From: Gemmataceae bacterium
GTDB lineage: Bacteria; Planctomycetota; Planctomycetia; Gemmatales; Gemmataceae
Assembly: GCA_022842245.1 (NCBI GenBank)
Contig: JALHPZ010000014.1
Span: 78,191-142,190, forward strand
Length of the DNA: 64,000 nt
Direction: 5' to 3'
In this document: in pieces, positions 22,197-59,855 of the stretch
Numbering within the stretch: the stretch's first letter is position 1
Layout of the letters: the number at the start of each line of letters is the position of its first letter
Made by a program: the position numbers and the translations under genes
The notes under the pieces: model-generated
Seen by the model: the letters and a program-made list of their open reading frames with translations, nothing else
Database searches by the model: none
Told to the model about the DNA's origin: nothing

Positions 22197-23819
22197 TCAA
22201 TGCCGGAAGTGCCGGACGCCGGTGAACAGCATCGCGATGCCGTGCTTGTCGCACGCAGCGATGCTGTCGGCGTCCTTGACAGACCCGCCCGGTTGCACGA
22301 TCGCCGTCACGCCGGCGGCAGCCGCCAGTTCCACGTTGTCCGGGAACGGGAAGAACGCGTCCGACGCCAGCACGCTTCCCTTCGCCCGATCGCCCGCCTT
22401 TTTCACGGCAATGTCCACCGACACCACCCGCGACATCTGCCCGGCCCCGACGCCGACGATCTGCGTGCCGTGACCCAGCACAATGGCGTTCGACTTCACG
22501 TGCTTGCAGACGAACCAGGCGAAGTGCAACGCCATGAACTCGTCCTCCGTCGGCTTCCGCTTCGTCACGACCTTCCATGCGTCCGGCGTGTCGGCCCCGA
22601 CGTCGCGTGTTTGCACCAGCAGGCCCCCATCGACGCGCCGATAGTCCAATCCCTCGGGGAATCCCGCAAGCGGTCCGGTTTTCAGAAGGCGGACGTTCTC
22701 TTTCCACTTCTTGAGCGCGTCGAGGGCGTGCGGCTCATAGTCCGGCGCGATGACGCACTCGACGAACCGCTTCGCCTTCGGGTCCATGATCGCCGAGGCG
22801 GTATCGGCGTCGACGGGGTGGTTGAAGGCGAGGATGCCGCCGAACGCGGAGAGCGCGTCGCCGTCCCACGCCTTCTGGAATGCCTCGGCGAGTGTCGGCG
22901 CCGTGGCCGCGCCGCAGGGGTTGTTGTGCTTCACGACAATCGCCGTCGGCCCGGCGAACTCGCGAGCGAGGTTCAACGCCGAGTCGAGGTCGAGGATGTT
23001 GTTGTAACTCAGTTCCTTGCCGTGGAGTTGCTCGGCCGTGGCGACGCAGGGGCGGTCGATGTCGAGGTCCTTGTAAAACGCCGCCTGCTGGTGCGGGTTT
23101 TCGCCGTAGCGCAGCTTCTGCACGAGATTGAACGGCGGATCGAATTCCTCTTCCCATTCCTCGGCCCCGGCTTCGTCCTCCATCTCGACCAATAGTTCTT
23201 TGAGTTCCTCGTCCCCTTCCGAGAGGAAGTATTCTTCGATCGCCTCGTCGTACTGGCGGATGAGCTGGAAGGCGATGGACGCCATCTCCTTGCGGAAGCC
23301 ACGCGACGACTGCCCGGCATTCGTCGCGAGTTCGTCGATCAGTTCGGAATAGAGGCTCGGATCGGACAGGATGACGACGGCGTCGAAGTTCTTCGCCGCC
23401 GCGCGGACCATGCACGGGCCGCCGATGTCGATGTTCTCGATCGCCTCCGCTTCCGTGACGCCAGGCTTCGCGACGGTCTTTTCGAACGGATAGAGATTGC
23501 AGACGACGAGGTCGATTTCCGCCAGCTTGTGTTCGGCGAGCGTGGCCATGTGCTCCGGTTTGCTGCGCTTCGCCAGCAGGCCGGCGAAGACAGCCGGGTG
23601 CAGCGTCTTCACGCGGCCGTCGAGGATTTCGGGGAAACCCGTCAGTTCGGCCACGTCCTTCACCGGCAACCCGGCGTCGGCGAGCGCCGCCTTCGTGCCG
23701 CCGGTGGCGATCAGTTCGACGCCATGCTTGGCGTGCAGTTCGGTGGCGAATTCGACGAGGCCGGTCTTGTCGGAGACGGAGAACAGGGCACGACGGATCG
23801 GACGGAGGTCGGAAGACAT
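22197..23819 (-). CDS. purH: Bifunctional AICAR formyltransferase / IMP cyclohydrolase
   Basis: 540 residues; catalyses the last two steps of IMP synthesis. The N-terminal MGS-like IMP cyclohydrolase domain (~1-195) has ALFSVSDKTGLVEFA, ATGGTKAAL and DGRVKTLHPAVFAGLL. The C-terminal formyltransferase domain has LRYGENPHQQAAF, KHNNPCGAA (catalytic Lys-His) and SDAFFPFPDNVE. Between the domains, residues ~199-228 are an acidic stretch (SEGDEELKELLVEMEDEAGA) longer than usual. The gene stands alone and converges tail to tail with the SpoVR-linked gene. Confidence 0.97.
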   Translation of the reverse strand: MSSDLRPIRRALFSVSDKTGLVEFATELHAKHGVELIATGGTKAALADAGLPVKDVAELTGFPEILDGRVKTLHPAVFAGLLAKRSKPEHMATLAEHKLAEIDLVVCNLYPFEKTVAKPGVTEAEAIENIDIGGPCMVRAAAKNFDAVVILSDPSLYSELIDELATNAGQSSRGFRKEMASIAFQLIRQYDEAIEEYFLSEGDEELKELLVEMEDEAGAEEWEEEFDPPFNLVQKLRYGENPHQQAAFYKDLDIDRPCVATAEQLHGKELSYNNILDLDSALNLAREFAGPTAIVVKHNNPCGAATAPTLAEAFQKAWDGDALSAFGGILAFNHPVDADTASAIMDPKAKRFVECVIAPDYEPHALDALKKWKENVRLLKTGPLAGFPEGLDYRRVDGGLLVQTRDVGADTPDAWKVVTKRKPTEDEFMALHFAWFVCKHVKSNAIVLGHGTQIVGVGAGQMSRVVSVDIAVKKAGDRAKGSVLASDAFFPFPDNVELAAAAGVTAIVQPGGSVKDADSIAACDKHGIAMLFTGVRHFRH

Positions 23820-23901
23820 GCGGAAGAAACCACTTTAAGGATGCAGAAAGAGCCAAACGGAAATCTTAGGAAAGCAATCGATGAACGCACCGTCAACCGA
23901 A

Positions 23902-24372
23902 TCAATTTGCGACTGCCAGATACCAGCCATTGGTGAGGTTCGTGACACGATGCCAACGCGAAGCATCGATCGGACCGTTCGCCTTTATGATGTAATGGTT
24001 GTTGTCGAGTGGACCGGATGCGTACTCGAAGAGTAACCAATTCTCTTTCTTCCAGATCGAGATGCTCGAAATACCCAACCGCTGAAACTGGTCAGGGACG
24101 TCTTTCACGAACTTCACGAAGGGCGTCTCGTCTTCGCGGAATTCGACTTGGTCTTTCGCGACTTCATCCGCGTACTGTTCGAACGACGATCTGTTCCAGC
24201 TGAACCGTCGAACTTGCTCCGAGTGTGAAGGCAACGGAGAAAGATCGAAGGCCGATGAGAGGATCCAAAAAAAGAGCGTGTAGGCTGCCAACAGTCCGGC
24301 GACGAATATGCCGAAAATGACAAAGCCATTCCAGATAAACTTGCGAACATTCCTCGGGGACTTCGATTCCAT
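23902..24372 (-). CDS. Unknown membrane-anchored protein (156 aa)
   Basis: 156 residues: a short basic N-terminus, one membrane helix (~13-38, FVIFGIFVAGLLAAYTLFFWIL), then a ~115-residue soluble domain with no family I recognise (WKKENWLLFEYASGPLDNNHYII). The topology suggests the soluble part is outside the cytoplasm. Base composition is visibly lower in GC than neighbouring genes, hinting at recent acquisition or relaxed selection. It starts 13 bp after the tilS stop on the same strand and may be read through from tilS. Confidence 0.6.
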   Translation of the reverse strand: MESKSPRNVRKFIWNGFVIFGIFVAGLLAAYTLFFWILSSAFDLSPLPSHSEQVRRFSWNRSSFEQYADEVAKDQVEFREDETPFVKFVKDVPDQFQRLGISSISIWKKENWLLFEYASGPLDNNHYIIKANGPIDASRWHRVTNLTNGWYLAVAN

Positions 24373-24385
24373 CGTGTGGCCCTTA

Positions 24386-25435
24386 TCAGATGGTTTTTAC
24401 GATTTGGACAATATTCCCGACCCCTCTCAAAGACACTTGTCCGGGGTAATCGCCTACCACGAGATTCGCGAGTCGATTCCAGTGGTCGAACGTCATCGCG
24501 TTCATTGGCCAGTTCTCGCGCCGCCAGACGAGCCTGAACAATTCCCGCACGAATAGCGGCGAAACGGTTTCCAGCGCGGCCTTATCGAAGATCAGCATCG
24601 CGCCCGCGCGCGGGCGCTCGGCGATGCTCAACAATCGCATCGCTTCCCCTTCGACGAAATCGAACGCCTCCGATGCCTGTTCCGCTAGCCGGCCGAGGAC
24701 GGAGACGATTTCGGGATTGAAGGATCGGAGCAACGGAAGGAGTTCCTGACGGATGCGGTTGCGGGTGAATCGCGGGTCGGCGTTCGAGGAGTCGATGCGG
24801 AAAGGCTGCCCGAGCGCGTGCAGGTATTCGAGCACGTCGTTCCGCGTGACGGCGAGCATCGGACGAACGACTCGCCCGTTTAGCCGAGAGGCGGAGTCTT
24901 CGGAGCCGAGCGCGGGACGCGAATTGATCGAATGACTCACTGTCATGTGAGGATGGCCCACCGCGCTCCGCTCCGAAGACTCCGCGTCGCGGCTAAACTT
25001 GATGGCCACTATCCCCCGCAGGCCCTGCAATCCGGTGCCACGAATCATTCGGTGCAGCACCGTCTCGGCCTGATCGTCGGCCGTGTGGCCCGTCGCGATC
25101 GTGCCCGTTGCCCCCGCGATCTCCTCCAGCCATTCGTAGCGCAACCGCCGGGCGGCGGCTTCGAGGTTCTCGTTCTGCGGAATCGCCAGCCGCGTGGAGT
25201 GAAACGGCACGTCAAGCGCCCGCGCCAGGTCGCTAACGAAAGCTTCATCGGCGTCCGATTCCGCGCCGCGCAGCTGATGATTCACATGGGCTACGACGAC
25301 ATCGCAGCCAGCCTCCCGCAGCGCCCGCAGGAGCGCGACGCTGTCGGCCCCGCCCGAGACGGCCGCGACGACCGGCCCGGCGATCCGGCGCTCCGAAACG
25401 AACGTTCGTACGGCTGCCACGAGCCGGTTCGCCAT
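24386..25435 (-). CDS. tilS: tRNA(Ile)-lysidine synthase carrying an in-frame palindromic insert
   Basis: 349 residues. The PP-loop ATPase motif SGGADS is at ~27-32, followed by HVNHQLRG, NLEAAARRLRYEWL and ATGHTADDQAETVLHRMIRGTGLQGLRGI, all diagnostic of TilS. The enzyme adds lysine to C34 of tRNA-Ile(CAU) so that it reads AUA. Between GLRGI (~142) and RVVRPML (~188), where other TilS proteins have a short linker, there are ~42 extra residues (FSRDAESSERSAVGHPHM...LGSEDSASRLNG) encoded by a 121-bp inverted-repeat element. The frame is kept and the RVVRPML and NRIRQELLPLL motifs follow normally, so the enzyme is probably active. Confidence 0.93.
   Translation of the reverse strand: MANRLVAAVRTFVSERRIAGPVVAAVSGGADSVALLRALREAGCDVVVAHVNHQLRGAESDADEAFVSDLARALDVPFHSTRLAIPQNENLEAAARRLRYEWLEEIAGATGTIATGHTADDQAETVLHRMIRGTGLQGLRGIVAIKFSRDAESSERSAVGHPHMTVSHSINSRPALGSEDSASRLNGRVVRPMLAVTRNDVLEYLHALGQPFRIDSSNADPRFTRNRIRQELLPLLRSFNPEIVSVLGRLAEQASEAFDFVEGEAMRLLSIAERPRAGAMLIFDKAALETVSPLFVRELFRLVWRRENWPMNAMTFDHWNRLANLVVGDYPGQVSLRGVGNIVQIVKTI
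24878..24998. repeat. Palindromic (inverted-repeat) element inserted in tilS
   Basis: Left arm 24878-24915 begins GTTTAGCCGAGAGGCGGAG and right arm 24961-24998 ends GACGCGG... read on the other strand as GTTTAGCCGCGACGCGGAG. The two 38-nt arms match at 35 of 38 positions and are separated by 45 nt. The element is open in the tilS frame and supplies residues ~146-186. A shorter related copy lies at 53478-53524. It resembles in-frame palindromic elements known from Rickettsia, but the sequence family here is different. Confidence 0.8.
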
Positions 25436-33293: not shown

Positions 33294-34597
33294 GAAATCT
33301 GCTCCAAAACCACATTGGAATCCGACGGGCGATCTTCTGTGAGAGTGTAGCTGGTTCGGGGCCGTTCCAACACCTCCGACAAGCCCGAATCGTCGCGATA
33401 ATGGACGGCGAGGACGGAATCGCCGGCGCGCACGGCTTCGCCGGGCTTGGCGCGGACGGTGATCCCGACGGCGGGGTCGATGGCATCCGAGGCCTTGCGC
33501 CGCCCGCCGCCGAGGAGCATTCCGGTGAGGCCGAGCGTTTCGGCATCCAGATCCGCGACGAAGCCGTCGCGCTCAGCCTTGATCTCGTATGTCTTTGGCG
33601 CCGTCGGCAATCGGGCATAATCATCGACGACGCGCGGATCGCCGCCCTGTTGCTCCACCATCTTGCGGAAGCACTCGAGGCCGCGGCCGGAATCGAGCGC
33701 GGCGCGGACTTTCGCACGGGCCTGTTCTTCCGACTCGACGAGTCCCGCGAGCCGGACCATACGGGCGGCGAGGGCGAGCGAAAGTTCGGTGAGATCGGCG
33801 GGGCCGTCCCCTTTGAGTGTTTCAATCGATTCGATCACTTCGAGGGCGTTGCCGACGGCGCGGCCGAGGGGCCGGTCCATGGCGGTGACGAGCGCCTCGC
33901 AGCGGAGGCCGTTGAGCCGGGCGACGCGGACGATGCCTTCGGCGAGGTTGCGGGCGTCGTCGCGCGTTTTCATGAACGCGCCACGGCCACACTTCACGTC
34001 CATGACAAGCGAGTCGATCCCTTCGGCGAGCTTTTTGCTCAGGATCGAAGCCGTGATGAGCGGAATGCACTCGACGGTGCCGGTGACATCGCGGAGGGCA
34101 TAGAGCGTCTTGTCGGCGGGGGCGACTTCGTCCGTCTGGCCGATCATGCCGATGCGCGTGGCTCGGAGGGCGGCACGGAATTCCGCTTCCGAGAGATTCA
34201 CCCGGAAGCCGGGAATCGATTCCAGTTTGTCGAGGGTGCCCCCGGTGTGGCCGAGTCCGCGGCCGGACATCATCGGCACGTAAGCGCCGCACGCGGCGAC
34301 GAGCGGGGCAAGGATGAGCGAGGTCTTGTCGCCAACGCCACCGGTACTGTGCTTGTCGACCTTCGGGCCGGGCAGGTCGGACAAGTCCAGCCGCTTTCCC
34401 GAGTCGGCCATGAGGCGGGTGAACGTGGCGGTTTCGTTCGGCGTCATGCCGCGCCAGACGATCGCCATGAGTAGCGCGGAGAGTTGATAGGGCTCCCAGT
34501 CGGTGCCCGTGGCCGCCGCGCGGACGAAGGCGGCCAGTTCGGTTTCGGCGAGTTCGCCGCCGTCGCGCTTCCGGCGAATCACGTCCACGGCTCGCAT
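33290..34597 (-). CDS. Pyrimidine-nucleoside / thymidine phosphorylase
   Basis: 435 residues from ATG 34597 (MRAVDVIRRKRDGGELAETEL). It contains the glycosyltransferase-3 family signature KVDKHSTGGVGDKTSLILAPL (phosphate-binding) and SGRGLGHTGGTLDKLESIPGF, and the C-terminal PYNP domain (GLTGMLLGGGRRKASDAIDPAVGI). It cleaves uridine and/or thymidine to base and (deoxy)ribose-1-phosphate; deoA versus pdp specificity cannot be settled by eye. First gene of the salvage operon. Its start faces the start of the caspase-like gene 82 bp away. Confidence 0.95.
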   Translation of the reverse strand: MRAVDVIRRKRDGGELAETELAAFVRAAATGTDWEPYQLSALLMAIVWRGMTPNETATFTRLMADSGKRLDLSDLPGPKVDKHSTGGVGDKTSLILAPLVAACGAYVPMMSGRGLGHTGGTLDKLESIPGFRVNLSEAEFRAALRATRIGMIGQTDEVAPADKTLYALRDVTGTVECIPLITASILSKKLAEGIDSLVMDVKCGRGAFMKTRDDARNLAEGIVRVARLNGLRCEALVTAMDRPLGRAVGNALEVIESIETLKGDGPADLTELSLALAARMVRLAGLVESEEQARAKVRAALDSGRGLECFRKMVEQQGGDPRVVDDYARLPTAPKTYEIKAERDGFVADLDAETLGLTGMLLGGGRRKASDAIDPAVGITVRAKPGEAVRAGDSVLAVHYRDDSGLSEVLERPRTSYTLTEDRPSDSNVVLEQIS

Positions 34598-59770: not shown

Positions 59771-59855
59771 TTTTGCATTTTTCGTTTCTCATTTTGCATT
59801 GCTCCAAACATGTCCGGAACAATGCAAAATCAGAAAAGAATAATGCAAAATGAGG
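59771..59855. repeat. AT-rich imperfect inverted repeat between cysS and ruvC
   Basis: Left arm 59771-59801 carries two TTTTGCATT units and ends CATTTTGCATTG. Right arm 59820-59855 carries CAATGCAAAAT and TAATGCAAAATGAG. The arms match over ~30 nt with a few differences around an 18-nt loop. The AT content contrasts sharply with the GC-rich surroundings. It is placed where a terminator would be expected. Confidence 0.6.

Follow-up and report, generated by a model that had tools for sequence, protein, structure and literature searches.

How does a palindromic repeat come to lie in frame within the gene for an essential enzyme, and why in one particular loop? Proteins with a single in-frame palindromic insert have been described, including those with Rickettsia palindromic elements (RPEs), and the part that chance, tolerance or benefit plays in their persistence is hard to test with scattered examples. 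The case analyzed here lies in a stretch of DNA of 64,000 nucleotides (the window) from a member of the Gemmataceae that belongs to the genus of Limnoglobus roseus (genome G000; 6.4 Mb, 94.9% complete). The sequence directly shows the element, its copies, the linkage to a RAYT transposase and the preserved frame, and also that different families recur at the site. We consider it likely that RAYT-type mobile palindromes, a REPIN in the case of G000, are tolerated at one permissive surface loop of TilS. The repeated entry of the same linker by different families is the main point and goes beyond the single-sequence view of the preliminary description of this locus.

The palindromic element and its host gene

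The gene tilS (positions 24386 to 25435, minus strand) encodes an insert-bearing tRNA(Ile)-lysidine synthase of 349 amino acids, as identified from the open reading frame (ORF), Pfam and a Foldseek search with the structural model. The 349 codons are uninterrupted in the ORF listing, the protein matches the PP-loop domain family ATP_bind_3 (4.9e-45), and residues invariant among 22 family proteins are retained. The AlphaFold model has a mean pLDDT of 89.5 and matched the solved TilS structures 1ni5, 2e21, and 3a2k with E values of ~1e-17. Differences from tilS of genome G053 number 36, 26, and 81 at the first, second, and third codon positions, respectively, and are thus mostly at third positions; together with the retained invariant residues, this excludes a dead gene. 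Over positions 22197 to 25435, purH is 98% identical between G000 and G053, and the adjacent tilS is 83% identical at the amino acid level outside the linker.

A 121-bp REPIN-like element, an inverted doublet of a REP with the foot GTTTAG, lies in frame within tilS at positions 24878 to 24998, as established by inverted-repeat and pattern searches and by doublets of similar length elsewhere. Its 38-nt arms, at 24878 to 24915 (plus strand, one base from the subfamily consensus) and 24961 to 24998 (minus strand, an exact match to this consensus), are complementary at 35 of 38 positions (92%) and enclose a 45-nt spacer (24916 to 24960). Location, arms, spacer, and in-frame state agree exactly with the preliminary description. 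The minus-strand reading of the spacer starts with TGGGCC and resembles the spacer of a doublet at C43:33576 that adjoins the RAYT gene described below. This inverted repeat is the longest of high identity in the 64-kb window. A degenerate pattern of the arm matched only the two tilS places in the window and had no match in 100 dinucleotide shuffles, which excludes a chance inverted repeat. Doublets equal or close in length to that in tilS were found in G000 at C1:240625, C24:84089, and C43:33576; at the four doublets of 120 to 121 bp, no direct repeats at the ends were obvious by eye. A different palindrome, of 80 bp and 85% complementarity, is found at window positions 59771 to 59850; it is AT rich, with TTTTGCATT motifs amid GC-rich DNA, and differs from the repeat in tilS.

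Translated in frame, the element reads FSRDAESSERSA...ALGSEDSASRLN. It occupies the linker between the conserved TilS motifs GLRGI and VVRP (positions 24872 to 25009, minus strand; residues 143 to 188), which stands out in the linker comparison and the model as the place where insertions recur in the family and which has 46 codons here versus 6 or 11 elsewhere. The gain of residues proposed initially is therefore real, and its size, given as ~42, is corrected to a net ~40 over the 6-residue linker or 35 over the 11-residue linker. Whether the residues form an exposed loop had also been raised as a question, and in the model the insert falls within a predicted disordered loop, with pLDDT values below 50 at residues 158 to 185. 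The insert thus probably reads as a hydrophilic, disordered TilS loop, and the enzyme would have survived because the insert kept the frame and was read in this way.

The GTTTAG repeat and a linked transposase

We named the repeat family of the tilS arm F1. Whether the arm has other copies in the genome was a central question of the preliminary description, and a whole-genome search with up to 3 mismatches retrieved ~80 copies in G000, with none for a reversed control pattern. The 82 arms collected occupy 68 loci, almost all intergenic. Most loci have a single arm; 14 of the 68 have two, as inverted pairs in 12 of these 14, and the two-arm loci form two size classes of 83 to 91 bp and 120 to 121 bp, the tilS copy belonging to the larger. 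The ~37-nt consensus is GTTTAGCsGCGAsGCGGAGTCTTCGGAGCsGAGCGCG; arms start with GTTTAGC and end with GCGCGG, and the foot GTTTAG is present in most of the 82 aligned arms. Positions 13 and 30 covary (20 GC, 11 CG, and no broken pair), as expected for a hairpin. Folding of single arms as DNA was no better than that of shuffles, so the proposed stem rests on this one covarying pair and on the likeness to REPs. The contigs C4, C16, C18, and C69 of G000 end in or beside an F1 arm; since several contig ends fall at arms, assembly is limited by the repeat and the true copy number may be higher than that counted. Upstream of many single arms are tandem GTGCGGAA/GTGCGGAG octamers that end with GTGAAAAC ~14 nt before GTTTAG, as if octamer repeats and F1 arms were co-travelling or nested repeat types.

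Gene calls beside the elements are based on a simple codon score; calls from the codon model missed tilS, and the frames spanning each element were hence scored directly. Only 5 of the 68 G000 loci have a coding signal that continues in the same frame on either side of the element, namely, those in tilS, an L-lactate permease gene, a pseudouridine synthase gene, a glycosyltransferase-like ORF, and an ORF that matches no Pfam family. At least four of the five use the reading frame FS(R/G)(D/E)A(E/K)SSE. Among 95 Gemmataceae genomes, 13 contain the F1 arm, and G015 has 129 arms.

G000 has nine Pfam Y1_Tnp genes, and no F1 arm was found in their examined flanks; closer inspection of six of them showed other repeats nearby. 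These Y1 genes (L028 to L033) have palindromic or tandem repeats of their own, such as a 32-bp tandem at L028 and one of 37 bp at L030. A divergent Y1 protein of ~200 amino acids adjoins F1-type repeats at L232 (G053), L231 (G019), and L228 (G094). It carries the RAYT motifs HuH and Y---NP, with PDHxHL and Y-VEN/D-NP conserved, and matches Pfam Y1_Tnp with 5e-6 in G053, the G094 protein lying just under the cutoff. Using the RAYT seen beside F1 in these relatives in a family search, we located the G000 orthologue, L354 (C43:33727-34289), which is frameshifted and spread over two frames; the G053 copy is intact. In G000, the gene lies between a 120-bp F1 doublet (C43:33576-33695) and a single arm at 34296. 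The same REP flanks the RAYT gene in G000 (C43), G053 (C20), G019 (C93), G094 (C5), and G093 (C245), and it is present in G035 on the one side available. The transposase gene in both G053 and G000 ends at a TAG stop that is part of the GTTTAG of the arm downstream. RAYT matches with E < 1e-50 were obtained in 9 of the 13 F1-bearing genomes.

In the mechanism that we propose, two ~37-nt REP hairpin sequences in inverted orientation would form a REPIN, one of a genome-dispersed family linked to the RAYT (Y1/HuH) transposase, and one copy would have inserted into the tilS linker between the conserved motifs GLRGI and RPLL with the frame kept. We infer that a RAYT moved the tilS element. Several findings speak against this account: the RAYT of G000 itself is frameshifted, the foot GTTTAG departs from the canonical GT[AG]G, and the family genome search revealed no close RAYT in G015 or G054 despite their many F1 arms.

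Recurrent inserts in the TilS linker of the Gemmataceae

The linker between GLRGI and RPLL was measured in 69 Gemmataceae TilS genes. It has 11 residues in most of the family and 6 in two congeners, Limnoglobus roseus (G052) and G054; the G000 linker has 46. In the alignment of relatives, the TilS linker either is short or holds a palindromic insert unrelated to that of G000, and the G000 residues were not found there with ordinary divergence, in line with the preliminary description. In total, 14 of the 69 genes carry an in-frame, stop-free palindromic insert in the linker. These 14 inserts fall into about seven families of repeats, all of which have multiple copies in the genomes concerned: (i) the GTTTAG repeat in G000; (ii) C-rich repeats in G026, G012, G010, G017, G019, and G090, with a separate type in G053; (iii) GGCGAGCGGGGGGC in G027 and G092; (iv) GGGCAGT heptamers in G023; (v) GTCAGAG heptamers in G020; (vi) GTCCGAGCCGGACG in G015; and (vii) one more in G061. 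The inverted-repeat score exceeded that of every shuffle for all 14, in some cases narrowly (26 versus 20 in G019 and 27 versus 17 in G061). In addition, a contig of G021 starts inside a C-rich element in the TilS linker, and in G009 (L158, C6) a 379-nt cluster of C-rich palindromes at linker positions 924 to 1302 brings stops and a frame change between the conserved halves; this gene may be broken, split, or affected by a sequencing indel. Several elements in a row are seen in the linkers of G010, G090, and G009. An assembly artefact was excluded, since occupied linkers occur in independent genomes, including those with few contigs (G010, 1; G027, 2; G012, 3; G023, 4).

The occupant differs between the two closest genomes, G000 and G053, and the linker of L. 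roseus is empty; that sister species have different occupants would fit mobility by RAYT. On a TilS tree computed by a quick method without the linker (65 rows), the linker state changes 13 times by parsimony, the minimum possible for the labels used being 8; with all inserts coded as one state, 9 changes remain. The sequences thus suggest about 8 to 13 separate entries into the linker, nearly all of which left the gene unbroken; this count hangs on the quick tree, and new insertion and replacement are not separable in it. The number of events is also uncertain because the inserts of G010 and G012 may have been inherited together, or some inserts may have arisen successively within an existing element. 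One loop of an essential enzyme entered this often, in occupied and empty sister species, offers natural replicates for the effects of repeats on a protein, and the inserts may mark recent activity of REPINs, which have been little described in these bacteria.

Of the 15 complete inserts, 14 are in frame, which indicates that they are translated or at least constrained. Under the proposed mechanism, unrelated palindromic families would enter the same loop in related species, likewise in frame; frame-breaking insertions would be lost and only in-frame, stop-free ones would persist. Since unrelated families enter the same loop in frame, the loop appears to be an unusually permissive landing site. 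Removal or bypass of the insert, by RNA processing or translational bypass, would explain why G009 has stops and a frame shift in a gene that should be essential there; in-frame, stop-free inserts, seen in every other complete case, are not required under bypass, and the G009 insert contains long runs of C or G, a type of sequence that is prone to sequencing indels. We regard an insert made inert in this way, rather than tolerated in the protein, as extremely improbable.

The inserts are concentrated at this site in comparison with the controls, for which few genes were used. In 30 relatives, purH, which adjoins tilS, has no insertion of more than 7 amino acids, and TilS outside the linker has no rare insertion of at least 12. 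Among the 80 TilS loci of a named collection, mainly from other Planctomycetota and other phyla, the linker exceeds 18 residues in only three, all of them Gemmataceae already counted. The C-rich element of G053 appears to lie in genes at 5 of its 24 places (tilS, a helicase, an MBOAT, an AMP-binding enzyme, and an aminotransferase V); with 5 of 68 in G000, in-gene copies are thus a minority, and tilS is the sole gene common to both lists. That the tilS linker is struck far more than the few other genes compared is not accounted for by tolerance alone. The linker DNA or its replication might instead attract several palindromic elements, for example through a target tetranucleotide or through DNA exposed as a single strand, with the in-frame ones surviving. 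Such targeting would fit the finding that at least 14 genomes have an insert in this one short linker and none was seen in purH or elsewhere in TilS. The two bases outside the F1 arm are seldom G (1 and 2 of 82 arms), a hint of some target preference of F1. However, detected arm starts are spread over 0 to 37 nt past the conserved GLRGI codons rather than at a single nucleotide, and a common target is unlikely for families that are unrelated, which together argue against one DNA target; the in-frame state of the complete inserts indicates selection at the protein level. We consider DNA-level targeting unlikely.

The TilS linker might also be a recurrently selected, evolvable site at which captured palindromes adjust lysidine synthesis and hence AUA decoding; that capture is adaptive in this sense seems improbable to us, although the insert has a possible adaptive role. 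More specifically, the length of the loop or a strong mRNA hairpin could allow the inserts to reduce or modulate the synthesis of lysidine, and they would be selected repeatedly. The RNA of the G000 insert folds at -84 kcal/mol (z = -8.7 versus shuffles), and the faster divergence of tilS than of purH between G000 and G053 would agree with this reading, but any long inverted repeat gives strong folding, and the inserts have no common sequence or length and are absent from most relatives. In an evolution experiment, tilS mutations were reportedly selected (PMC10128029). Tuning of this kind is, in our view, quite unlikely. As the probable cause of the recurrence, we favor protein-level tolerance of a neutral insert over both targeting of the DNA and a benefit.

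Relation to known intragenic repeats

Like the REPINs and BIMEs mobilized by RAYTs (TnpA_REP) (PMC3116915, PMC6006769), F1 forms inverted doublets of REP hairpins, is present in high copy number, and is mostly intergenic. As in REPIN/RAYT systems, it flanks a Y1 transposase with HuH and Y---NP, the signature of class-2 TnpA_REP (PMC6006769). It differs in that one copy lies in an essential gene. Its foot is also different, GTTTAG (in relatives, GTGAAG or GGTTAG) where those systems have GT[AG]G, and F1 was therefore not filed in the GTAG REP superfamily. The tilS insert resembles the RPEs as an in-frame palindrome that adds tens of residues to a working protein. The comparison with RPEs made in the preliminary description hence holds as an analogy of effect and fails as kinship: sequence and phylum differ, and F1 is RAYT linked and, with arms that start with GTTTAGC and end with GCGCGG, lacks the CGTC tag by which it could be filed as an RPE. 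CGTC repeats have no known dedicated transposase (PMC3733652).

Intragenic GTAG and CGTC REPs form in-frame doublets within known proteins, tRNA pseudouridine synthases among them, and in recB of two Xanthomonas species a REP lies at about the same site (PMC3733652). In contrast to these cases, about seven families in 16 genomes share one short linker of one gene here. In the open-licence literature, we found no report of TilS with palindromic elements or of many families that enter a single linker.

The pseudouridine synthase of G000 (S4 and PseudoU_synth_2; L074:1716-2891 on C5) has a linker of ~90 amino acids that is largely repeat DNA. As a second hot spot this linker is a weak candidate, since most relatives simply have long low-complexity linkers there. 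The F1 insert in it is common to G000 and G053, and G028 has a palindrome in this linker. In L074, the F1 arms lie between inverted GTGCGGAG octamer repeats, and it is the F1 part that is shared with G053.
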